Shown here piece after piece: positions 687 to 17,438 of a DNA stretch of 21,841 bases. Both the position numbers and the translations under genes were made by a program. Source of the stretch: a virus; IMG/VR virus record IMGVR_UViG_3300005918_000156, positions 1 through 21,841 of that record; one strand, 5' to 3'. The notes under the pieces were generated by a model. That model was not told the origin of the DNA, did no database searches, and saw only the letters and a program-made list of their open reading frames with translations. Numbering within the stretch: position 1 is the stretch's first letter; every line of letters begins with the position of its first letter.

Positions 687-717
687 CGTCGCCCTCCTCG
701 TTCGGGTTGGGGGTGAA

Positions 718-951
718 CTATTCGGGATCTGAGGCATCGTCGTAGCAGTCGGCACAGACGGGGCCGTGGGCGGAGGTCATTTCCGCCGGGCCTCCGCAAC
801 GCACACAGGCGCGGCGCGTGGAGGGGGCGGCGGGCATGGCGATACGGCGTGCGGCCCACATGTCGCCCCTAGGGCGGCTGTCCGGGCTATGCACGTCTGC
901 CTGAGCGTCCGCAGCCGCGGCGGCACGTTTGAGAATCGCATCCAGGTCCAT
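718..951 (-). CDS. Small zinc-ribbon-like protein (77 aa)
   Basis: The C-terminal third carries CVRCGG and CADCYDD, a compact CxxC...CxxC zinc ribbon. The N-terminal half is an Ala-rich helix (MDLDAILKRAAAAADAQ) followed by a basic, Pro-rich linker. The start is the ATG at 949-951, with GAGGAG 7 nt upstream; the frame stays open to 1224, but upstream extension has no ribosome binding site and would run into the next gene. The leader again contains AACCCGACGAGGAG, nearly identical to the leader of the 471-686 gene, although the proteins differ outside the Cys knuckles. Confidence 0.7.
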   Translation of the reverse strand: MDLDAILKRAAAAADAQADVHSPDSRPRGDMWAARRIAMPAAPSTRRACVRCGGPAEMTSAHGPVCADCYDDASDPE

Positions 952-976
952 CTCGCTCTCCTCGTCGGGTTGGGGT

Positions 977-1282
977 TTAGCGGGCCGCCAGGGACAGTAC
1001 GCCGTCTTTTTCGCCCAGTTCCAGGCAGTGATGCCGGAAGTAAGGGTTCGCCTTGTCAACGCGCAGGCGGGGATCGTCCTGGTAAAGTTCCACCGCCTTG
1101 GCGATGATCTCAGCGCTCCGGCGAGCGATGGCGGGGTCCGGGGCCTTGGGGGCTCGAGGCGCACGGGGTCTCGTGGTCTGGCGCCCTGACCCGCCGCACT
1201 TGAAGCAGATGCCGCCAAGCACATTCGAGAAGGCCGTGATGTGTCCGCGGCCGTCGCATCGGTTGCACGGGTAGGTCTTCAT
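977..1282 (-). CDS. DnaJ-type zinc-finger-like protein (101 aa)
   Basis: The N-terminus carries two CxxCxGxG-type elements, CNRCDGRGHI and CFKCGGSGRQ, the signature of the zinc-binding central domain of DnaJ. Here they stand alone without a J domain, as in many small phage proteins. A basic Pro/Arg linker (about residues 35-50) leads to a helical C-terminus. The start used is the ATG at 1280-1282, with GGAG 9 nt upstream. An in-frame ATG at 1319-1321 lies only 2-3 nt from the predicted transcription start and could give a leaderless 114-aa form. This is the first gene downstream of the leftward promoter at 1331-1359. Confidence 0.72.
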   Translation of the reverse strand: MKTYPCNRCDGRGHITAFSNVLGGICFKCGGSGRQTTRPRAPRAPKAPDPAIARRSAEIIAKAVELYQDDPRLRVDKANPYFRHHCLELGEKDGVLSLAAR

Positions 1283-2697: not shown

Positions 2698-4149
2698 ATG
2701 GCTGACCGATACTGGGTGAATGACGATGCGGACAACTCCTTCAAGAACGCCAACAACTGGGCCGCGGAAGATGGCGGCGCTGGTGGGGCAGGTGTCCCAG
2801 GATCGTCTGACGCCGTGATTCTCAAGGCGGTGTCTTCGATAGATCAGTGTGTGGTTGATGTCGCCCTGGATGTGCAGTCTATCACGGCGTATGCGGACTA
2901 TACCGGCGCTGGCGTGGACGATGGGCGCTTCGACAACGCGGCTGCTCACAACATCACGGTGGGCGACGTGGCTTTCGCCTGCAAGTCGCTCACGTTGGGC
3001 AACGGGGCGACGTGGACTGTGAACGGAAACTGGGACACGACTGGGATGGCCTACGGGACGATCACGCGCACGGGATCCTTGATTGACCTGGCGGGCACAT
3101 CGAAGACATTCGTGAACGGCACTAACGGGCAACTGAACGATATTACTGTGAGCGGATCATATACGTCCCCTGGCAAGTGCGGTCGTGTAGAGGGGGCGGT
3201 GCGGGTGACGGGAACCCTCACGTGCAACCACAAGTGGGTGTACGGCTTTGACGCGTACATTACGGGCACGCTGAACGGTTCCGGGAGTTTCGGGTGCACC
3301 AACGGGAAAGAGCTGAAGGATGCGAGCGGGACGATTGATATCGCGACGTTTGAGTTGCGGCCTACCGTAATGGGTGTTGCTGAATGTGCGTCTGCGGTAT
3401 TTGGTGGAAACCTAACACTGGCCCAGCGGTCTGGCTCCAATGGGACGATCCGGCCCCTGGGGGACATTGAGGTCGGCGGGACACTGACCCTGTATAGCCG
3501 GGACCACGCCACATACACATTCTGGATCGACATGGCGACGAACAACGTCGATCTCACTGTGCGGGGCGGTGTTGTTTGGGATGAGGGAACGCTCCCGATT
3601 GTCTGGCAGAAGGGCACTGGCACGATCACTATCGAGGGAGCGAACGACCAGGACATCCAACTTGGCGATCCGGTCGAGGACATTGTAGTCAACAAGAGCG
3701 CGGGGGACCTGGTCCTCAACGGCGACATCGTGACCGACTCGTGGACCGGCACCAGCACGGGCACGGGGAAGTTCAAGCCCAACGGCTACACGATCACGAC
3801 CGTGGGTGCCTGCTCATGGACCGCGGCGTTCAAGTTTGCTTCGGACGCGGACGCGATGAACGGCTGCACGTGGGTCGTGGGGGGCAACTGGACTGCGGAC
3901 GGGCAGAAGCTCCCCGCAACGGCCGCGTGGTATCTGCAAGTCACCGGCACCGCGGTGGCGTCCGGCATTGGCGAGGTCGCGTACTCAGACGCGAGCGGTG
4001 GCACCGAGATCAACGCGGCAGGCGGAACGTGGACCGACAACGGGAACAACATCAACTGGGCAGGCCTCGTGTCGGCTGCACCAGTTCGGGGAAAGATCGG
4101 GACAAGTCTGGCAGGCCGTAACCCCCTACTCCGAGGACTGGTCGCATGA
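2698..4149 (+). CDS. Beta-solenoid-like phage tail/appendage protein
   Basis: A 483-aa protein rich in Gly, Thr, Asn and Val with repeated short strands separated by turns (TWTVNGNW, VTGTLT, ITGTLNGSGSF, LTVRGGVV, GTITIEG, WVVGGNW). This is the look of a right-handed beta-helix or beta-roll in tail fibers, tailspikes and surface adhesins. The N-terminus (RYWVNDDADNSFKNANNW, then GVPGSSDAVI) matches the cap pattern often seen before such solenoids. No catalytic glycosidase motif is evident, so adhesion or capsid/tail decoration is more likely than depolymerisation. It starts at the ATG 1 nt after the previous stop and overlaps the next gene by 4 nt (ATGA). Confidence 0.72.
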   Translation: MADRYWVNDDADNSFKNANNWAAEDGGAGGAGVPGSSDAVILKAVSSIDQCVVDVALDVQSITAYADYTGAGVDDGRFDNAAAHNITVGDVAFACKSLTLGNGATWTVNGNWDTTGMAYGTITRTGSLIDLAGTSKTFVNGTNGQLNDITVSGSYTSPGKCGRVEGAVRVTGTLTCNHKWVYGFDAYITGTLNGSGSFGCTNGKELKDASGTIDIATFELRPTVMGVAECASAVFGGNLTLAQRSGSNGTIRPLGDIEVGGTLTLYSRDHATYTFWIDMATNNVDLTVRGGVVWDEGTLPIVWQKGTGTITIEGANDQDIQLGDPVEDIVVNKSAGDLVLNGDIVTDSWTGTSTGTGKFKPNGYTITTVGACSWTAAFKFASDADAMNGCTWVVGGNWTADGQKLPATAAWYLQVTGTAVASGIGEVAYSDASGGTEINAAGGTWTDNGNNINWAGLVSAAPVRGKIGTSLAGRNPLLRGLVA

Positions 4150-5897
4150 TGTACCTAGGTGATTTCGTGGAAGACGCGGAAGTTGTCTTCTACTGGAACA
4201 CGAATGACAGCGATGGGGCGAGCATCACGCGCGCCACAGATGGCACGGTCAAGGTGCGCCGAGATGATGGCACTGATTGCACAGGCACGTCCGTGACCGA
4301 CAATGAGGATACGCCGGACACCGGCATCCACGAGTGCAAGATCGACACCTCGGACAGCGCCAACTTCGCCGTTGCATACGATTACACGGTATGGCTCGAT
4401 GGGGCGGTGATTGACGGGGCAACAGTCAACGCGGCCCTTGCTCATTTCTCTGTTGAGAACCGTTTCGTCGAAGTGGACGTGACCAAGATCGGCGGGGCCG
4501 CTCAGTCAGCGACGGACCTCAAGGACTTCGCGGACGCTGGCTACGATCCAAGCACGCACATCGCGCAGTCAGACTTGACTCACATCCATGGCTCGGCTCT
4601 GACTGAGACCGCGGGCCAACTTGCGGCGCGGTTCACGACCTTCTTCGACCAGGCCAGCGCTGCGTTCAATGTGGCGACGGCTCTTGCGAGCTTCAAGGCG
4701 ACGGGTTTCTCTACACACAGCGCGGCTGATGTAGTAACGGCGCTCGGGACTGGCAGCACGCTGACGGCTTGCTTGACAGCCGCTGGGTTCTCTACCCATG
4801 ACGCTGCGGCTGTCGTTACCGCGCTCGGGACTGGCAGCACGTTGACTGCCTGCCTCACTGCGGCTGGATTCAGTACGCACGATGCCGCCGCCGTTGTCAC
4901 CGCGCTCGGCACAGGATCGACCCTCAACGCGTGCCTTACTGCAACGGGGTTCAACACGGTCGTGCCCGACGTAAATGGTACGGCAGCAACTTTGCACACG
5001 ACTACGAACAGCAAGATCGACACAGTTGATACCGTCGCCGACGCCATCCAAACCGTGACAGACAACTTGCCCAACGCCGGGGCCTTGAGTGACCTGGCGA
5101 CCTTGGCGACCCGCCTGTCTGCCGCAAGAGCGGGCTACCTCGACAATCTCAATGTTGCGGGTACTCTTGCGAATACAGACAACGCCTCCAGTTTCATGGC
5201 GGACATCACGACTTTGGCCCTAGAGGCTACGCTCACTGCCATGAAAGGCACAGGCTGGACGGACGAGTCCCTCAAGGCCATCAAGGATGCCGTGGACGCC
5301 ATCGGCGGCGATGCCACGTTGGCGAATCAGGAGACGCTGTTGGATCGCCTTGGCGGATGGACCGCGACGGGAGACAACACGATTCTCGGCGCGCTCAAGG
5401 CAATCGCCTCAAAGGCCGCGGACACGCCGTCCGACATCGGCGGCACGTTCGCCGCCAGCACGGACAGCCAAGAGGCGATCCGAGACAAGCTTACCACCAC
5501 CACAATCACGATCACGAATCCGATCAATCCCGACACCAATGCCGCCACGCTCTATCACGCGTCTGATTACACGGCGCTCAGCGTCGCAGGCACCCTCGAC
5601 TTCACGTTCACCGATTGGGCGGGCGAGACCGTGGCAGAGGCGTGGTTCACCGTCAAGCGCCGCTACGCCGACGCCGACGCCGACAAGATTCACCAGGAGA
5701 CGAAAACTGGGGGCGGCATCACCGTGTCCGATATCACAGGCCTGGACCTCTCGGTTGCAGTCAGCGCGACGAGCCTCGCCGCAATCGACGCCGGCGAGTA
5801 TGTCTACGACGTCAAGCTCCGGGTCGGCGACACGGTCGATGTCGCGGTCATCGGCGTTCTCACCGTCGCGGATGTCGTGACCAAAGAAGTCCCCTAG
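4146..5897 (+). CDS. Tail/baseplate-appendage-like protein with 27-aa repeats (583 aa)
   Basis: Residues 1-105 form a beta-rich domain (MMYLGDFVEDAEVVFYWNT..., ending ALAHFSVENRF) that recurs at the N-terminus of phage tail or neck appendage proteins known mainly from metagenomes. Residues 110-420 are Ala/Thr/Asp-rich and probably helical or coiled, including three perfect-length 27-aa repeats (residues 186-266). Residues 455-583 (ITITNPINPDTNAATL onward) form an Ig-like beta domain similar in pattern to the N-terminal domain of baseplate upper protein BppU. It starts by ATGA overlap with the previous gene; a second ATG follows directly. Structural role in the virion is inferred from architecture and position next to terL. 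Confidence 0.68.
   Translation: MMYLGDFVEDAEVVFYWNTNDSDGASITRATDGTVKVRRDDGTDCTGTSVTDNEDTPDTGIHECKIDTSDSANFAVAYDYTVWLDGAVIDGATVNAALAHFSVENRFVEVDVTKIGGAAQSATDLKDFADAGYDPSTHIAQSDLTHIHGSALTETAGQLAARFTTFFDQASAAFNVATALASFKATGFSTHSAADVVTALGTGSTLTACLTAAGFSTHDAAAVVTALGTGSTLTACLTAAGFSTHDAAAVVTALGTGSTLNACLTATGFNTVVPDVNGTAATLHTTTNSKIDTVDTVADAIQTVTDNLPNAGALSDLATLATRLSAARAGYLDNLNVAGTLANTDNASSFMADITTLALEATLTAMKGTGWTDESLKAIKDAVDAIGGDATLANQETLLDRLGGWTATGDNTILGALKAIASKAADTPSDIGGTFAASTDSQEAIRDKLTTTTITITNPINPDTNAATLYHASDYTALSVAGTLDFTFTDWAGETVAEAWFTVKRRYADADADKIHQETKTGGGITVSDITGLDLSVAVSATSLAAIDAGEYVYDVKLRVGDTVDVAVIGVLTVADVVTKEVP
4701..4943 (+). repeat. Three in-frame 81-bp tandem repeats
   Basis: Units 4701-4781, 4782-4862 and 4863-4943 each encode 27 residues of the form (A/T)GFSTHxAAxVVTALGTGS followed by TLxACLTA; a fourth unit begins at 4944 (TGFNT) and decays. 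The second and third units differ by one residue (T/N), yet their DNA differs at many synonymous sites, so the protein repeat is old and kept by selection. Confidence 0.9.
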
Positions 5898-9274: not shown

Positions 9275-9549
9275 GGCTCGCTCTCCTTCCACTCGTCGCA
9301 CATGCCGTGTCCTGCGCACTTGTGCGTCGCGGCCCACGCGTCCCACCGCTCGCCCGCGGCGAAGTAGGCCGCGACTGCCTTCGGGTACTCCATCGGCTTC
9401 GGAAACGAGCCCTCGTCGTAGTACGGAGGTCGATCCTGCGTCTTGTTGCAGAAGTGCCCCGGAGACTTGCGCCACGACGCCACGCCAAACACATGCGCGC
9501 AGTCGTGGCACCCGTGCTGGATTCGGTAGGTCTCGGGGAGGTCAGTCAT
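9265..9549 (-). CDS. Cys/His-rich hypothetical protein (94 aa)
   Basis: The product begins MTDLPETYRIQHGCHDCAHV, with a C-x2-C-A-H knuckle, then FCNKT, and ends with CAGHGMCDEW and a terminal EPCA. The four to six Cys/His residues suggest one zinc site. The middle (KAVAAYFAAGERWDAWAA) is helical. The ATG at 9547-9549 has GAGGAG 7 nt upstream. It overlaps both neighbours (8 nt with the 9542 gene, 10 nt with the 9274 start), typical of coupled translation. Its MTDLPE opening is echoed by MPTDLPE in the upstream gene. Function unknown. Confidence 0.7.
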   Translation of the reverse strand: MTDLPETYRIQHGCHDCAHVFGVASWRKSPGHFCNKTQDRPPYYDEGSFPKPMEYPKAVAAYFAAGERWDAWAATHKCAGHGMCDEWKESEPCA

Positions 9550-9724
9550 CACGGGGCTCCTCGGGATTCTTGGGGCAAAAGAACACATGCTCTTTGTGGC
9601 ACTCGACGCAGAACCACTGGCGGCACAATTGACAATAGATCAGTCGTGACGGCGAAAATGGGGAGTGACAACCGGCACAAGACCGCAACCGCGGGCCATT
9701 TCTCTCGGGGAGGTCAGTCGGCAT
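9542..9724 (-). CDS. B-box/FYVE-like small zinc-finger protein (60 aa)
   Basis: Almost the whole protein is a Cys-rich finger: CAGC, then YCQLC, FCVECHKEH and FFC. The order C-x2-C...C-x2-C-x4-C-x2-C-x2-H resembles cross-brace fingers that bind two zinc ions. Such fingers often mediate protein contacts. The ATG at 9722-9724 has GGAGG 6 nt upstream. The gene overlaps the 9714-11030 gene by 11 nt and the next gene by 8 nt. The specific partner is unknown. Confidence 0.68.
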   Translation of the reverse strand: MPTDLPERNGPRLRSCAGCHSPFSPSRLIYCQLCRQWFCVECHKEHVFFCPKNPEEPRDD

Positions 9725-11030
9725 CGTTCGCCTCCTGCCCCGTCAGCTTGTTGAGGGCCGCGCAGAGGATGATGGCACGCTCCTCGTCTGTCGCCGCAAA
9801 TGCGCGGCCCTCACCGTTCTGGAGCGGGGCAACCGCAACCCATCCTCCGCCCTCCATTATCCGCGCCGCGAACGGCTCGGTCACGCTGGCCTTGAACTCC
9901 GCGACGGGGTCGGGCGCGGGCTCCTCCTCGATGCCGTCGAGGTCCGCGAGCGTCGCGATGGGGCGCTTCGTCCAGAGGCGACCCGTATCGCAGGCAACAG
10001 CCTGGGGTTTTCCCTCTCCCGAATACAAACACACAAAACACAGGCTCGCCCCGGCTCTATACACAATCACCAATTCCGCTTTGCCTCCTACGCAGGTTTT
10101 CGTCCCGTAGCATTCCGCCTCCGTCGGCAGGTCGTGCGTGTAGCAGTTCGGCTCCCGCGGCTCGCCCACGGGCAGGGGAGCGCGCGACCAGAGGCGGGTG
10201 GACTCGGCCTCACTTATCCACGATGACATTTCACAATCCGGGGCGAATCGCAGCCCACCGCCCCATTCCCACACGACCACCGGATGCTCGGGGCCACCCT
10301 CAACGGTGCTCAGGTACACGCCGGGCACGGTCGGCCTCTTCAGGACCAGTTTCGTCTTCGTGCCCGTCGCCTTCGGCGCGGCGACTTGCAGCGGCTCGCG
10401 GGACCAGAGGCGATGTTGGCTGGCTTGGCCTACCCACTGCGCCTCGCCACTCACATCTGGCGCGAACCGCAGCATGTCCTCACAGCGCCAGACAATCACC
10501 TCGTGTATATCACCCATGCTCAGCACGCGGGAGAGGTACGTGCCTGTCTTCGTCGGATGCTTGGAAAATAGTTCCTCAGTCACGGCAGTCTCCTCGGGTT
10601 TGGGTAGCGGGTTGTTCGGGCACATGCCATCGGGATGAACAGAGCCAGGTTCGCACGACCCCAACCAAAGACAACAGCCACAGCCATAGGCACAGCCCTG
10701 CAACCACGGCGATGGGCCATAGTCGTGCGGGCCGAATCGGTTAGGGTCTACGCGCGGCGTACTGGTCCTACCGTTGCGCCACTTGTCAAACTCCCCCGGC
10801 ACCGCCCAATCGGGGGTCTCGGTCGATTCACTCGGCATGGTCTCCTCCTCGGGTTTGGGTTTGTTCGCGTACTCGGGGCAGAGCACGCGGTCGGTGATGT
10901 ACCAGCCCGCCTCTAGCGCAACGCGTGTGGTATCGCACATGAACGGAAACCCCTCCTGCGTATTCTGAATCCCGCATTCATCGCAGACCGCGGTGCAGCG
11001 GTGCAGCGTGGGGTCATACTGAATCGGCAT
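9714..11030 (-). CDS. Three-module Cys-rich protein with internal starts (438 aa)
   Basis: One uninterrupted frame that looks like three small genes joined. Module A (residues 1-64) has a C-x3-CDEC knuckle (HRCTAVCDEC) and FMCDTTRVALEAGWY. Module B (65-149) has a CAYGCGCC cluster. Module C (150-438) holds three degenerate repeats of about 55 aa, each ending in RLW(S/T)(R/K)xP(L/I), at about 159-214, 233-286 and 311-357. A and B each end in a KPEE run encoded by CCCGAGGAG, which also forms a Shine-Dalgarno before an in-frame ATG (10838) and GTG (10583). Full-length and shorter products are all possible. The main ATG at 11030 has AAAGGAG at 6 nt. No family recognised. Confidence 0.65.
   Translation of the reverse strand: MPIQYDPTLHRCTAVCDECGIQNTQEGFPFMCDTTRVALEAGWYITDRVLCPEYANKPKPEEETMPSESTETPDWAVPGEFDKWRNGRTSTPRVDPNRFGPHDYGPSPWLQGCAYGCGCCLWLGSCEPGSVHPDGMCPNNPLPKPEETAVTEELFSKHPTKTGTYLSRVLSMGDIHEVIVWRCEDMLRFAPDVSGEAQWVGQASQHRLWSREPLQVAAPKATGTKTKLVLKRPTVPGVYLSTVEGGPEHPVVVWEWGGGLRFAPDCEMSSWISEAESTRLWSRAPLPVGEPREPNCYTHDLPTEAECYGTKTCVGGKAELVIVYRAGASLCFVCLYSGEGKPQAVACDTGRLWTKRPIATLADLDGIEEEPAPDPVAEFKASVTEPFAARIMEGGGWVAVAPLQNGEGRAFAATDEERAIILCAALNKLTGQEANDAD
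10581..10598 (-). promoter_or_regulatory. Internal RBS and GTG (module C start)
   Basis: CCCGAGGAGACTGCC precedes an in-frame GTG at 10581-10583 with 6 nt spacing, giving a 289-aa product starting MTEELFSKHP. The upstream 15 nt are shared with the 10836 site. Confidence 0.55.
10836..10853 (-). promoter_or_regulatory. Internal RBS and ATG (module B start)
   Basis: CCCGAGGAGGAGACC directly precedes an in-frame ATG at 10836-10838, giving a product starting MPSESTETPD. The signal is as strong as those of the annotated genes around it. Confidence 0.55.
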
Positions 11031-11032
11031 CG

Positions 11033-11236
11033 CTACTCCTTTGGTTTGAATCCGGACTTGATCTGGCGACGGGTTTCGTCCCATGATAGCTCGCCCGCTT
11101 TCACACGGCGTATGATGTCCATGCGCCTCGGGAGGCCGGCGTGCAATGCACTCTGTCGCCGCTCGAATGCCTGTTCGCGCGCGGCCTCGCGCCGATAGTG
11201 GGTCTCGTCGTCTCGCCTGGGTATCTGCCCAGACAT
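11033..11236 (-). CDS. Small highly charged helical protein (67 aa)
   Basis: Strongly basic and probably all-helical: repeated Arg/Glu segments (RREAAREQAFERRQSA), then LPRRMDIIRRVKAGELSWDE and a C-terminal KSGFKPKE. It could bind nucleic acid or act as a small regulator, but there is no family match I can state. The ATG at 11234-11236 has GAGGAG 6 nt upstream. The upstream frame to 11482 lacks a signal and overlaps the Lar/DUF551 gene. The TAG stop lies inside the ribosome binding region of the next gene (AAAGGAGTAGCG). Confidence 0.68.
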   Translation of the reverse strand: MSGQIPRRDDETHYRREAAREQAFERRQSALHAGLPRRMDIIRRVKAGELSWDETRRQIKSGFKPKE

Positions 11237-11238
11237 GG

Positions 11239-11676
11239 CTACTCCTCTCCCGGCAGTGCGGACAGTTCCTGCCAATGCGTGATGTGTTCGCATCGGTCGC
11301 CTTCGATGTTCCAGTAGCAGGGTCTCGAGGATTCGAGCCACATTTCCTTCCCGTCCGTCACGAGCCATCGTTTGCGGACAAGGGTAGGCGGCATCTTCGG
11401 CAGCCGATCCTTTACGCTGACCCACCCGCCGCGCAGCGCCGCGCGGCCGGCCTCGATCTCGTCTAGAGTCCGCAAAACCCACCGCACCGCGCCGCCTTGT
11501 GTGCGGTAGTCAGGCCTGCGCGAGCACAGGCGGAAAAAGCATCGGCTGCATTCCCAGACCGCGCAGTACTTCCAATTGTTCCGGCTAAGGCTTGAGAATA
11601 CAGGGGTCGGTCGCCCGCCGCACTTCGGACACTTCCGCGCCAACAGCTTCGCGGTGTAGTCAATCGCCTTGGTCAT
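11239..11676 (-). CDS. Lar-type zinc ribbon fused to a DUF551-like domain (145 aa)
   Basis: The N-terminus has a Lar-like zinc ribbon: CPKCGGRPTPVF, then a W-rich segment and WECSRCFF. The C-terminal 60 residues (GWVSVKDRLPKMPPTLV ... EHITHWQELSALPGE) fit the small phage domain DUF551, which opens with W-I/V-S-V-x-x-R-L-P and closes with I-T-H-W and P. Lar of the Rac prophage alleviates type I restriction; whether this protein has that activity is inference from the ribbon only. The ATG at 11674-11676 has GAGGAGG 7 nt upstream. It overlaps the preceding gene by 17 nt. Confidence 0.68.
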   Translation of the reverse strand: MTKAIDYTAKLLARKCPKCGGRPTPVFSSLSRNNWKYCAVWECSRCFFRLCSRRPDYRTQGGAVRWVLRTLDEIEAGRAALRGGWVSVKDRLPKMPPTLVRKRWLVTDGKEMWLESSRPCYWNIEGDRCEHITHWQELSALPGEE

Positions 11677-11947
11677 TGCTGTCCTCCTCACGGTCGTACC
11701 ACAGAAACGAGTCCACTGAAACCCAGTACTCGTGTTCGTGCCCCACACTAGAACGAACACGCACCCTGTCCCCCTGGACCTCAAGCACTATGCCGCGCAC
11801 ATTATATCGGCCGCGGCTCCACCACACAGACTGTCTCACAGGCAGCAGCGCCCTTATCCTGGCGTGCCATGCCAACTCGGCTTCTAGCAGCACGGCGCGT
11901 AACGCTCGCGGCCCGGGAACCCAATTCTTACCTCGCGCCTCGGTCAT
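11660..11947 (-). CDS. Hypothetical protein with SH3/Tudor-like strand pattern (95 aa)
   Basis: An N-terminal amphipathic helix (ALRAVLLEAELAWHARIRALL) is followed by a small beta-barrel pattern: SVWWSRGRYNVRGIVLEV, then DRVRVRSSVGHEHEYWVSV, and an acidic tail. Such VRGIVLEVxGDRVRV barrels occur in small phage proteins and can bind nucleic acid or protein; function is not known. The ATG at 11945-11947 lies under the repeated start element (AAGGAGGCCCCCG). Confidence 0.68.
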   Translation of the reverse strand: MTEARGKNWVPGPRALRAVLLEAELAWHARIRALLPVRQSVWWSRGRYNVRGIVLEVQGDRVRVRSSVGHEHEYWVSVDSFLWYDREEDSNDQGD

Positions 11948-11960
11948 CGGGGGCCTCCTT
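11945..11960 (-). promoter_or_regulatory. Start-associated repeat element, copy 1
   Basis: AAGGAGGCCCCCGATG spans SD to start codon; identical over 16 nt to the copy at 16577-16592 and two changes from the copies at 12168 and 12391. Confidence 0.7.
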
Positions 11961-12170
11961 TCAGTGTCCTGGGAAATCAGGTAGGTTGTCGTATTCTGCC
12001 TGGGGCATCGTGACCAGTTTCAACGTGATCGTCACTTCCTCGCCAATCTCCAACCCGGAAAGCTCGCCATCAATGGCCTGGTGCAGGTCTGACAATCGTT
12101 GCACGTAGGCACTGCCGCCGCGGAGGGCCACTCTGACGAATACGCACGTGTCGGTTTCAGGTTCAGGCAT
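11961..12170 (-). CDS. Hypothetical phage protein (69 aa)
   Basis: A short alpha/beta protein: a first strand (CVFVRVALRGG), a helix (YVQRLSDLHQAIDGEL), a second strand (VTITLKLVTM) and a tail QAEYDNLPDFPGH. No Cys pairs beyond one residue. I recognise no named family. The ATG at 12168-12170 sits under an exact copy of the 16-nt start element. The gene overlaps the upstream one by 8 nt and ends directly at the SD of the next. Confidence 0.68.
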   Translation of the reverse strand: MPEPETDTCVFVRVALRGGSAYVQRLSDLHQAIDGELSGLEIGEEVTITLKLVTMPQAEYDNLPDFPGH

Positions 12171-12393
12171 CGGGTGCCTCCTCAGATAACAGTGCCGCTG
12201 CTACATCACCAAGTTTGGCACGGTGTGCCATCGCCATCGACGTTACCGGAATGGTTACGGTAGGCGGCATCGCGGTGGTGTCAATCACTGCGGTATGCCA
12301 CGGGCACGGCAGCGGGTGCCCACATAGCAGTTTGGGACTGTCGCGGTCAGGATGTCTGCATGTCAAGCCAGGCACTTGATGTTTAGGCTTCAT
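12163..12393 (-). CDS. Small Cys/His protein, hypothetical (76 aa)
   Basis: The N-terminal half is Cys/His-rich (GLTCRHPDRDSPKLLCGHPL, then CPWH), consistent with a small zinc knuckle. The rest is a Thr/Pro/Val segment and a short helix (AHRAKLGDVAAALL). The product ends EEAPDA, a tail dictated by the start element of the next gene. The ATG at 12391-12393 has GAGGAGG 7 nt upstream. Function unknown. Confidence 0.62.
   Translation of the reverse strand: MKPKHQVPGLTCRHPDRDSPKLLCGHPLPCPWHTAVIDTTAMPPTVTIPVTSMAMAHRAKLGDVAAALLSEEAPDA
12168..12183 (-). promoter_or_regulatory. Start-associated repeat element, copy 2
   Basis: GAGGAGGCACCCGATG, identical over 16 nt to the copy at 12391-12406. It also encodes the C-terminal EEAPD of the upstream protein. 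Confidence 0.75.
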
Positions 12394-12790
12394 CGGGTGC
12401 CTCCTCTCTGTCCTCTGGCTTCCACTCGACCAACTCTAGGCCGCGGGTCGGCAGGCCGTAGCGGTCGCGGAAGAACACAAGCAACTCTGACCATGTACTG
12501 AAGCCGTCGCGGTGAATGAACTCATTGGCATCCTCATAGGGGAGATAGCCCCTCCGATAGCGCAGCGCCTTGCGCTCGAGCTGGACACCCCATGGGTCAA
12601 TCGTGATCGGCGTCACAGCCGCGCACGGGACGCGGAGCAGCAGCCGACACGCGGGCGTCCGCTGCCCCGTGTAGAGTGACAGCATGTCGCCGGGGACCGT
12701 GGGCCGCTTGCGCTTGCGGCGGATCGTCTGCGGCTTCTCGCCACTCGCTACGGCCGCCGCGAACTCATCCATGAAGTTGTACGCTGGCAT
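12383..12790 (-). CDS. ASCH-domain-like protein (135 aa)
   Basis: The pattern fits an ASCH-like RNA-binding fold: MDEFAAAVASGEKPQTIRRK (the sG-K-x-x-T-I-R element), PGDMLSLYTGQRT, strands through RLLLRVPCAAVTPITI, and the characteristic DGFSTWSELLVFFRDRYG followed by a final strand LELVEWKPE. ASCH proteins bind RNA or modified nucleotides; some act as ribonucleases or N4-acetylcytidine hydrolases, but no activity is claimed here. The ATG at 12788-12790 has GGAGGAG upstream and overlaps the previous stop by 1 nt (TGATG). The upstream open frame to 12865 has no ribosome binding site. Confidence 0.75.
   Translation of the reverse strand: MPAYNFMDEFAAAVASGEKPQTIRRKRKRPTVPGDMLSLYTGQRTPACRLLLRVPCAAVTPITIDPWGVQLERKALRYRRGYLPYEDANEFIHRDGFSTWSELLVFFRDRYGLPTRGLELVEWKPEDREEAPDEA
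12391..12406 (-). promoter_or_regulatory. Start-associated repeat element, copy 3
   Basis: GAGGAGGCACCCGATG, identical to the copy at 12168-12183, overlapping the end of the ASCH-like gene, where it encodes EEAPDE. Confidence 0.75.
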
Positions 12791-13273: not shown

Positions 13274-13668
13274 CAGAAGATTTCCACAGGCTGCCGCTTC
13301 CGCGCAGCAGCCACAGCACGAAACAACTTGCTGAAGTCCTTGCAAGCGCCCAGGAGCAACCAGATGACGTGATTGAGCCCGGGCACCTCCACTACGTCCG
13401 TCTGGCGAAATTGTTTGTGCCACACATCAAAGGCCATGTTGGCCTTGATTGGCATTGCCTTAGCATACCGACACATCAACGCCGCCAATGCCTGCTTTAC
13501 GCCGTCTTGGGACCACGGGTACGAGCCCCGTTCAGATAGCAGTCGGGCCAATTCCAGTACGCGCCATACGCCGATGCGTGCGAGCGCGCCGCGCTCAGAA
13601 CCGGCGCACTCCTCGCCATCACAGAACTTGCCCACGAACCGTGCGCCGCAGTAGTCACATCTGGTCAT
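13273..13668 (-). CDS. Zinc-ribbon protein with helical C-terminus (131 aa)
   Basis: The N-terminus has CDYCGARFVGKFCDGEEC, a clear four-Cys zinc ribbon (C4, C7, then FCDGEEC). The remaining 100 residues are mainly helical (LARIGVWRVLELARLL, QALAALMCRYAKAM, LNHVIWLLLGACKDFSKLF) and end in KRQPVEIF. The ribbon suggests nucleic-acid or protein binding. The ATG at 13666-13668 lies under a one-mismatch copy of the start element. It overlaps the upstream gene by 14 nt. Confidence 0.7.
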   Translation of the reverse strand: MTRCDYCGARFVGKFCDGEECAGSERGALARIGVWRVLELARLLSERGSYPWSQDGVKQALAALMCRYAKAMPIKANMAFDVWHKQFRQTDVVEVPGLNHVIWLLLGACKDFSKLFRAVAAARKRQPVEIF

Positions 13669-13927
13669 CGGGTGTCTCCTCTAGAATCTCCGCCTCAAGT
13701 TCGTCCAGTTTCGCGGTGACCGCCGCTGCCACGGCCTCGCACATCGCCCGTACGTGTGGGCCGCGCCACTCGCGGTCCTCGTCGGGGCCGGGGTAGTACC
13801 ACACGTTCGCGGTGAGCCTGCCCTTCAGATCAACGAGCTCGCGACAGACGATATCGCGTATCCCTTTCACCATGCTCCGCGCGAGGTCGGGGTGCTCGCG
13901 GGCCAGGGCCGTCAGCTTCATGCACAT
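13655..13927 (-). CDS. Hypothetical helical protein (90 aa)
   Basis: Mostly alpha-helical: MCMKLTALAREHPDLARSMV, then GIRDIVCRELVDLK, a short WYYPGPDEDREWRG loop and a long C-terminal helix (RAMCEAVAAAVTAKLDELEA). It ends EETPDDQM, the tail set by the next gene's start element. AAGGAGG lies 6 nt before the ATG at 13925-13927. The much longer open frame upstream overlaps the DUF5131 gene and is a GC artefact. No family recognised. Confidence 0.66.
   Translation of the reverse strand: MCMKLTALAREHPDLARSMVKGIRDIVCRELVDLKGRLTANVWYYPGPDEDREWRGPHVRAMCEAVAAAVTAKLDELEAEILEETPDDQM
13666..13681 (-). promoter_or_regulatory. Start-associated repeat element, copy 5
   Basis: GAGGAGACACCCGATG differs at one position from copies 2 and 3. 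It encodes EETPDD at the end of the upstream protein. Confidence 0.72.
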
Positions 13928-16116: not shown

Positions 16117-16579
16117 TGGGGGGGGGCTCCTGTAGAGAGGCGACATATTCCGTGTCCAGGTAGGTTATGCCGTACAAGTCAATCTGCGCGTCCGCGAGCC
16201 GGTTTAGCTTGCGCAGGAACACCTTCTCACAATGCGACAGCACTTTTTGATCCTCCTTCTCGATCAAGTCGACCCGCCAACGATTCGTCGCCTCCCAGTC
16301 GGTCGTGATCGCGCGGTAGTCGCTCGCGGATAGCCCGAGCCAGAATCGGCCGCGGACCTCCAACAGCTTGCGGAGCAGGGCCTTGGTCGCGCCGGCCTCC
16401 GTCTTGCGGAATACCCATGTACCCCAGTGGCAGGTAGAACAATGAAACTTGGTCATCCATTTGCTCCGCACGTCTCGGTAGAACTCGAGCAGATCAATCT
16501 TGATGTCACTCGCCCCGCAGAACGGGCATCGCTTCCACTGCGCTCGGCGCGCGGCCCAGTCGATTCTAGGCGTTGGCAT
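16109..16579 (-). CDS. Lar-like zinc-ribbon protein (156 aa)
   Basis: The N-terminal 50 residues hold a zinc ribbon, CPFCGASDIKIDL ... FHCSTCHWGTWV, close to the Lar and related phage ribbons (CPFCG followed by a second C-x2-C before an aromatic). The remaining 100 residues are helical and basic (ATKALLRKLLEV, LIEKEDQKVLSHCEKVFLRK). An anti-restriction role is only a possibility. The ATG at 16577-16579 is covered by the start element AAGGAGGCCCCCGATG. The end overlaps the next gene by 8 nt and contains the C9 tract (residues PPP). Confidence 0.7.
   Translation of the reverse strand: MPTPRIDWAARRAQWKRCPFCGASDIKIDLLEFYRDVRSKWMTKFHCSTCHWGTWVFRKTEAGATKALLRKLLEVRGRFWLGLSASDYRAITTDWEATNRWRVDLIEKEDQKVLSHCEKVFLRKLNRLADAQIDLYGITYLDTEYVASLQEPPPNE
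16118..16126. repeat. Nine-base G/C homopolymer between SD and start codon
   Basis: Nine G on the + strand (nine C in the leftward mRNA) lie inside the last codons of the 16109-16579 gene (PPP) and between the SD and ATG of the 15928-16116 gene. Confidence 0.9.
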
Positions 16580-17438
16580 CGGGGGCCTCCTTCTGCGCAA
16601 CCCGCAACTCCTGCACGGTGATCTTGAACTGCCGCTTCCCGCGCTCGTCAGGCTTGCGGTGATACGGGACATCCGAACTATACCCACCGCACGCGACGAG
16701 CCAACCGCTGCCGTCCATGAAGTCGGCGAAACTCGTCACATCGCAGACCATGCCCTCCCACTCGAATTGCGATCCGACGTACAATCGCTTCTTCTGCCAA
16801 AGGAACGGCGTCCGGCCGCAACACGCTTCAACACTGCGCGCTGCGCTGAGATTGCCCTCCCTGATGGCATAGCGATAGACCTGCTCCATGTGGAGCCAGT
16901 ACTGGCCTCCCTGGGTATCGTAAATTCGTTCAATGTCGTCGGGGTAGAATTCCATGTGCAGTTCAATGGCGATGCACAGGGCACGTTGCAAGGCCCCGTT
17001 GAGTTTCGTCCCCGACCGGCGTTTCGCCGGGCCGTAGACCGCCTGGAGCAATCGCTCAGGCCCCGAAAGATCGTCGATGGCCTCCACGGTCGCGGTGTAG
17101 CACCGCGGGCTGATCGTCACTCGTCGCGCTACAATGGTCGGCACGTCCATGTCCTGTCCCGACGCCACCACGTCGTCCACGGCGACGCGGATGCAACGCG
17201 AGTTTGGCATCAGTTTGAGGGCGCTGGGTTTCCGAACATACAGGGACCAGCCGGCTTTGTACGCAGGGCGGCCCGCATATTTTGCGACTTCGTCCTGGCC
17301 CCGCCACACGTTTTCGCCAGGGCTCCATTCGGTCACTTTGCGGCCCGTGCCATCCACGAGCCGCCGGCCCTTTGCCCAAACGATAGGATGGGCATGGGTC
17401 ACGTTTCGCGTCTGTTCGTCTACCGTGGTCAATGCCAT
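16566..17438 (-). CDS. Large hypothetical phage protein (290 aa)
   Basis: The second largest gene of the leftward block after DUF5131 and DnaB-sized products, without a family I recognise. The N-terminal third is beta-rich (IVWAKGRRLVDGTGRKVTEW, GWSLYVRKPSALKLM, CIRVAVDDVV). The centre is helical (LNGALQRALCIAIELHMEFY, IYDTQGGQYWLHMEQVYRYA). The C-terminus returns to strands (RLYVGSQFEWEGMVCDVTSF, GWLVACGGYSS, RQFKITVQELRVAQKEAPD). The ATG at 17436-17438 has GGAGGAA 9 nt upstream. It ends inside the start element of the next gene. A 45-nt gap separates it from the upstream gene. Confidence 0.72.
   Translation of the reverse strand: MALTTVDEQTRNVTHAHPIVWAKGRRLVDGTGRKVTEWSPGENVWRGQDEVAKYAGRPAYKAGWSLYVRKPSALKLMPNSRCIRVAVDDVVASGQDMDVPTIVARRVTISPRCYTATVEAIDDLSGPERLLQAVYGPAKRRSGTKLNGALQRALCIAIELHMEFYPDDIERIYDTQGGQYWLHMEQVYRYAIREGNLSAARSVEACCGRTPFLWQKKRLYVGSQFEWEGMVCDVTSFADFMDGSGWLVACGGYSSDVPYHRKPDERGKRQFKITVQELRVAQKEAPDANA
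16577..16592 (-). promoter_or_regulatory. Start-associated repeat element, copy 6
   Basis: AAGGAGGCCCCCGATG, identical to copy 1 at 11945-11960 although the genes are unrelated. It encodes KEAPDA near the end of the upstream protein. Confidence 0.72.

Follow-up and report, generated by a model that had tools for sequence, protein, structure and literature searches.

Possible fusion of small genes through leader-like linkers, with candidate internal translation starts, in an uncultured phage

Results

The IMG/VR virus record IMGVR_UViG_3300005918_000156 spans 21,841 bases at 62% G+C, and the whole record constitutes the window analyzed here. Its terminase gene scores just over the Pfam cut-off for Terminase_6 and matches phrog_2 at 6.9e-27, and Pfam also identifies a DnaB helicase and a DUF5131 protein. 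Called genes from 21841 down to 7693 all run leftward, with overlaps of 1-17 nt in 18 of 28 adjacent pairs. Terminase peptide patterns gave 0 DNA matches in viral contigs and no close relative was found in the databases searched; a terminase match was obtained in 111 phage records, of which the first-ranked is a Tunturiibacter phage at 24.9% identity.

Among tightly packed small leftward genes lies an open frame of 438 aa (47.9 kDa), reading on the minus strand from ATG 11030 to a TGA ending at 9714. The first unit, M1 (10842..11030, 63 aa), has the layout CDxCG...AGW...LCP, ends in KPKPEEE, matches phrog_17873 weakly and has stand-alone look-alikes. Directly downstream of its LCP end (the M1 boundary being our own reading) is joint J2 (10839..10866), a leader-like linker reading NKPKPEEET that contains the 16-mer ACCCAAACCCGAGGAG at 10845-10860 and places the SD GAGGAG 6 nt before ATG 10838. 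The Cys-rich unit M2 (10584..10838), without a family match, fills the 85 codons between both internal starts. It ends in joint J3 (10584..10611), a leader-like linker reading PLPKPEETA, with the 16-mer at 10590-10605 and GAGGAG 6 nt before GTG 10583. J3 lies directly upstream of repeat R1 (10347..10583), which shares 47% identity over 64 columns with R2 (10140..10346); a probable decayed third repeat, R3 (9945..10139), is 30% identical to R1. The remainder of the frame (9714..9944) comprises a third acidic linker, IEEEPAPDP (GAGGAGGAG at 9929-9921), which has no start codon at SD spacing, and a C-terminal unit, M4.

An earlier note on this DNA, made from the letters alone, had described three gene modules in the frame. 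There are more than three, since the third part is made up of tandem repeats and a further C-terminal unit. R1 is predicted to be a small beta-domain, in a model built from the three repeats that has four strands, a pLDDT of 71 and a pTM of 0.59. The full-length fold model is unreliable (pLDDT 32), so that module boundaries rest on sequence only. By codon statistics, one and the same frame is preferred in each of the six parts tested, most weakly in M2. By computation, a start at ATG 10838 would yield a product of 374 aa and 40.6 kDa, and a start at GTG 10583 one of 289 aa and 31.4 kDa.

The earlier note was accurate in placing GAGGAG SDs before an in-frame ATG and an in-frame GTG. J2 reads aaacccgaggaggagacc-ATG, or at greater length aaacccaaacccgaggaggagacc-ATG, and J3 reads aaacccgaggagactgcc-GTG, or ctacccaaacccgaggagactgcc-GTG; J2 also contains another GAGGAG that overlaps the first and leaves 3 nt to the ATG. 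The distance from GAGGAG to the start is 5-8 nt at the 10 listed leftward starts that carry this hexamer. For the frequency of such signals we relied on a hand-made list of 35 genes, also used for the start profile, recoding and folding analyses below, which omits the left-end genes 1282-977, 951-718, 686-471 and 430-203 and some weak frames. Inside these genes (gene ends excluded) there are 20 strong SD-like clusters, six of them in the 438-aa frame alone, and five of the 20 have an in-frame ATG or GTG at 4-9 nt: J2, J3, two terminase sites (6119 and 6356) and 16243. By our arithmetic, about two in 20 would be expected from the 5.45% frequency of ATG/GTG codons. Because five of 20 clusters have one, the terminase pair included, an SD with an in-frame start is by itself not beyond chance. 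The terminase sites 6119 and 6356 (plus strand), each an internal SD with an in-frame ATG, could serve as negative controls, or might themselves be candidate internal starts.

When the protein was held fixed and its codons were redrawn synonymously 2000 times, the SD was equally strong in 56% of the draws at J2 and in 62% at J3. SD strength at both joints thus follows from the Glu-Glu codons. The SD duplex energies are -11.8 and -8.9 at the joints, against a median of -8.75 at true starts. A start profile with fixed positions, which we judged too rigid given the variable SD spacing, still ranks J3 10th and J2 35th among 420 internal in-frame starts, and this counts against the joints.

In folds of 50 nt, internal sites average -13.8 kcal/mol, while J2 stands at -4.5, J3 at -5.1, and the terminase sites 6119 and 6356 at -19.6 and -16.3. 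Only J2 and J3, among 406 internal in-frame starts, are at least equal to J3 in both SD energy and 50-nt openness, by thresholds that the two sites themselves set. The local openness was attained by 1.4% of synonymous versions for J3 and 15% for J2. True starts are also closed in places by this measure (-19.6 at 9724 and -17.9 at 11236). Local folding in a 120-nt context ranks J2 29th and J3 110th of 406 by opening energy, and the wide-context energies of J2 and J3 (3.21 and 4.91) compare with 3.49 and 4.89 at the terminase sites. The evidence from openness therefore depends on the method, being exceptional in 50-nt folds and ordinary in the 120-nt context.

The joints are further linked by their nucleotide sequence. 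The 16-mer ACCCAAACCCGAGGAG is exactly common to J2 and J3; when the codons of the 438-aa frame were shuffled 5000 times, just 2 shuffles contained any 16-nt repeat. Scanning the whole window for the joint 16-mer with up to three mismatches returned a single further match, at 961-976 on the same strand with two mismatches (0.21 expected by chance). It falls inside a stretch, here called leader A (952..979, minus strand), that runs from the TAA of the apparent gene 1282-977 through ACCCCAACCCGACGAGGAGAGCGAG to ATG 951, upstream of the apparent gene 951-718, and that is identified by the 16-mer scan, local alignment and codon statistics. The next gene start is preceded by a similar leader B (687..720, minus strand), running from the TAG of the apparent gene 951-718 through TTCACCCCCAACCCGAACGAGGAGGGCGACG to ATG 686. 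In local alignment across the window, both J2 (score 36) and J3 (31) match leader A best once the joints themselves are set aside; the best scores in 100 second-order Markov windows were 32 and 30 for the respective queries, and none reached 36 or 31. Used as the query, leader A scores 38 with B, 32 with J2, 30 with a coding stretch at 13816-13757 that has no start, and 24 with J3. With the leader A query, here three bases longer, 2 of 100 shuffled windows scored at least 31. The likeness of the joints to leaders is thus real and not overwhelming. To this extent the leader family proposed in the earlier note is upheld: linker DNA resembles the leaders that lie between stop and start of other genes here.

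Leader A is non-coding only if 1282-977 and 951-718 are genes as we called them. In codon statistics, 1282-980 scores 0.21 and 951-721 scores 0.14, whereas the upstream extension of the latter scores -0.09; 686-474 is also favoured in frame. The frame of gene 951-718 stays open through leader A up to 1224, and if the gene calls are wrong, leader A would be another coding linker. The apparent gene 1282-977 has a DnaJ-type CxxCxGxG look, with a Pfam E-value of 0.04 that is under the cut-off, and every Pfam match of the left-end apparent genes is likewise below cut-off. Translated in the frames of their own genes, leader A reads KPQPDEESE and leader B SSPPTRTRRAT, beside NKPKPEEET and PLPKPEETA at the joints.

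Elsewhere in the gene array, an upstream gene often carries the SD of its successor within its final codons, which are of the kind found at the joints, as in ...LPGEE* followed by ATG 11236 and ...GFKPKE* followed by ATG 11030, and similar SD-bearing tails are ...SEEAPDA* over ATG 12170 and ...NPEEPRDD* over ATG 9549. From their sequence, the joints look like these neighbouring gene junctions minus the stop. Exact direct repeats of at least 16 nt on one strand of the window amount to five pairs: the J2/J3 pair, one inside gene 4146-5897, and three at gene starts or leaders (11947/16579, 12170/12393 and 9549/9724). The last of these pairs belongs to two adjacent genes, whose starts have 17 nt in common (9531-9549 and 9703-9724, minus strand; MTDLPE and MPTDLPE), which suggests that gene starts have been duplicated or have recombined. 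The pair inside gene 4146-5897, which perhaps encodes a fibre or tail protein, consists of exact repeats 81 nt apart (ALGTGSTLTACL..., 4740-4841, plus strand). Another kind of leader, RAGGAGGCMCCCGATG, stands unaltered at four gene starts and differs by one change at a fifth (11945-11960, 12168-12183, 12391-12406, 16577-16592 and 13666-13681, minus strand). The upstream gene overlaps it at four of the five sites, with look-alike tails EEAPDEA*, EEAPDA*, EAPDANA* and EETPDDQM*.

Across IMG/VR, the 17-mer pattern CCMAACCCGASGAGGAG matched in 15 places, one of which has a usable start downstream (L169, 763 codons); at the other 14, some of them copies of one stretch, no start opens a frame of more than 10 codons. 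The motif hence carries no general start-site meaning outside this phage.

Homologues of the 438-aa frame, with or without stops at the joints, were sought in viral contigs, genome contigs and phage records using the whole frame, the modules and the repeat alignment as queries, and none was found; plasmids were searched with M4 only and returned nothing usable. The contig scans used short exact or degenerate peptide patterns, which mostly reach close relatives. Since no homologue with or without stops came to light, we only infer the loss of stops. A scan with the DUF5131 protein matched 139 stretches, of which 133 were relatives and 80 were kept. When the 35 genes and the modules were compared by tblastn with 161 loci, no module match was better than E 0.006. 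That value belongs to M4 on mycobacteriophage Donny and was discarded as out of frame with the annotated gene; a match of M2 (E 0.052), which lies away from a gene start in a long frame that by eye resembles a phage integrase, and matches under a cyanophage terminase (E 0.7) were also rejected. The 15 loci carrying CCMAACCCGASGAGGAG matches held no module match at E<=0.01.

Pfam and PHROG searches returned no significant family match for the 438-aa protein, and none at all for M2. M1 matches phrog_17873 at E 0.031 (11-53 on 11-61 of 69; 9.2e-4 for this record alone), a family that at a loose threshold also matches in 12 of 14 control genomes. A pattern derived from M1 retrieved stand-alone 67-aa frames of like layout, with an AAGGAG leader, at three loci, two of which are identical in this frame; their likeness to M1 arises partly by construction, because the search pattern was taken from M1. 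M4 has a weak match to phrog_15678 (E 0.012) that runs past the TGA, in a search that also matches in 4 of 14 control genomes. The best viral fold matches of the R1 model include phage proteins of 72-78 aa and DUF551 proteins (best E 0.096), and against the PDB nothing of note was found (best E 0.98). A resemblance of M1 and R to short stand-alone phage proteins is weakly supported by these matches, none of which is significant.

Discussion

Nested products from a single phage frame have a precedent. In LysIME-EF1 (PMC7098653), an in-frame SD and ATG in the linker before the C-terminal domain give rise to a nested C-terminal product; 36 related sequences retain this site, and mutating the ribosome-binding site and start together abolishes the short product. 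The 438-aa frame is similar to LysIME-EF1 and Lys170-type endolysins in having an in-frame SD and start, properly spaced, at what its sequence indicates to be domain boundaries. It differs in having two such sites instead of one, in that no relatives were found, and in encoding a protein without a significant Pfam or PHROG match. If its internal starts are used, the 438-aa frame would work as LysIME-EF1 does.

A second comparison concerns the leaders. Cluster K mycobacteriophages carry the start-associated sequence, or SAS (PMC3203893), a repeated leader with AGGAG located just upstream of many non-structural gene starts. The phage studied here similarly has repeated SD-bearing leaders at several gene starts (A with B, 38; A with J2, 32; RAGGAGGCMCCCGATG). 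It departs from the SAS in sequence, which is GGGATAGGAGCCC in cluster K, and in that its leader family is also translated inside an open frame. In the window, GGGATAGGAGCCC has three matches with two mismatches (5963, 7944 and 18703; 0.62 expected) and none closer, and 0 of them are at called gene starts. The leaders resemble the SAS in kind and not in sequence.

Starting from the observed anatomy, leader likeness, SDs and spacing, our best reading is that the frame is a fusion whose linkers derive from leaders and that ribosomes probably also initiate internally, yielding products of 374 and 289 aa; we hold this tentatively and at somewhat less than an even chance. Neighbouring small accessory genes would have been joined into the 438-aa frame, with former stops presumed between them. 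Two of the joints would be former leaders of the genes downstream, A/C-rich stretches with GAGGAG that came to be read in frame as acidic PKPEE linkers. A single lost stop or upstream frame change would suffice to translate a leader, because such a leader is free of stops when read in frame with the gene it precedes (KPQPDEESE in leader A), and the linkers do look like translated leaders. The translation of leader A cuts both ways, in that it may display the route from leader to acidic linker or may already be that of a coding linker. Since the leader's ribosome-binding site is intact, ribosomes probably initiate at 10838 and 10583 besides 11030, which would place C-terminal proteins of 374 and 289 aa beside the 438-aa protein, with the tandem beta-repeats common to all. 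The proposal of the earlier note, that adjacent genes gave either a fusion or nested products, is partly supported, by leader-family linker DNA and by the precedents for SDs in gene tails, and is amended in its module count. We regard a putative internal-start fusion of an established kind as likely but unproven.

The frame might instead encode a conventional multi-domain phage protein with 11030 as its sole start. Acidic Pro/Lys/Glu linkers would then join its domains and spell an SD through codon usage, and the Met or Val shortly after would be there by chance. GAG is the usual Glu codon (299 against 109 GAA, in an early hand-picked gene list with several wrong starts), so that PEE linkers spell GAGGAG, and an SD of equal strength appears in 56-62% of synonymous draws. 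The third linker lacks a start, 14 of the 15 IMG/VR motif matches lack a usable one, and two comparable sites, equally accessible in wide context, occur in the terminase, where no joint is expected. These points make the ordinary protein a distinct possibility, on the doubtful side in our estimate; it leaves unexplained why both linkers, outside the joints, best match a gene leader that has their register, and why the linkers share an exact stretch of 16 nt, when 2 of 5000 codon shuffles contained any such repeat.

The leader evidence would be accounted for just as well by an old leader-derived fusion whose internal starts are now unused, the leaders surviving as fossils in the form of linkers, and the merely average opening energy of J3 agrees with this. 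We consider such decay unlikely, given that the SDs are uneroded (-11.8 and -8.9, with true starts at a median of -8.75) and that the local openness of J3 recurs in just 1.4% of synonymous versions. An assembly or consensus error that erased the stops between genuinely separate genes is conceivable in an uncultured virus contig with no close relative found, where checking for errors would need reads, and appears highly improbable to us: codon statistics favour one frame across six parts (weakly for M2), errors would be needed at two independent joints, each keeping the frame open and the SD whole, and a 16-nt repeat would be short for assembly collapse.

If the fusion with leader-derived linkers is right, downstream leaders would have been kept as protein linkers in gene fusion, not removed. 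Strings of small genes would then have a simple route to multi-domain proteins with their separate products kept, in compact phage genomes, and gene callers that give one long frame may miss nested proteins. Measured from one point in J2 to the identical point in J3, M2 spans 255 nt, or exactly 85 codons. A more speculative extension, which we rate as quite improbable, is that leaders act as hinges with three roles, as ribosome-binding site, flexible linker and 16-nt recombination homology, with M2 as an in-frame cassette gained or lost and nested multi-domain proteins arising by leader shuffling. Under these terms, whether M2 was gained or lost, the frame would always stay open and retain an internal start that works.

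As to function, a small-domain accessory protein is a guess from the place of the frame among small Cys-rich and DUF551-like genes; the repeats R1 and R2 and their non-significant fold likeness would fit a string of small genes. The R1 model is like DUF551 (PF04448) in having DUF551 proteins among its best fold matches, and unlike it in that R1 and R2 have no PF04448 sequence match and the fold E-values are all >0.09; R1, R2 and the whole third part gave no match to PF04448 at E<=10, in searches where HMMER filters drop most weak matches. The neighbouring gene 11239-11784 (minus strand) matches PF04448 at 19.8 bits (cut-off 22). Over 11239-11676 it has a Cys-rich N-terminus joined to a DUF551-like C-terminus (E 0.0015, under the cut-off), a further indication that small domains have been joined in this phage.
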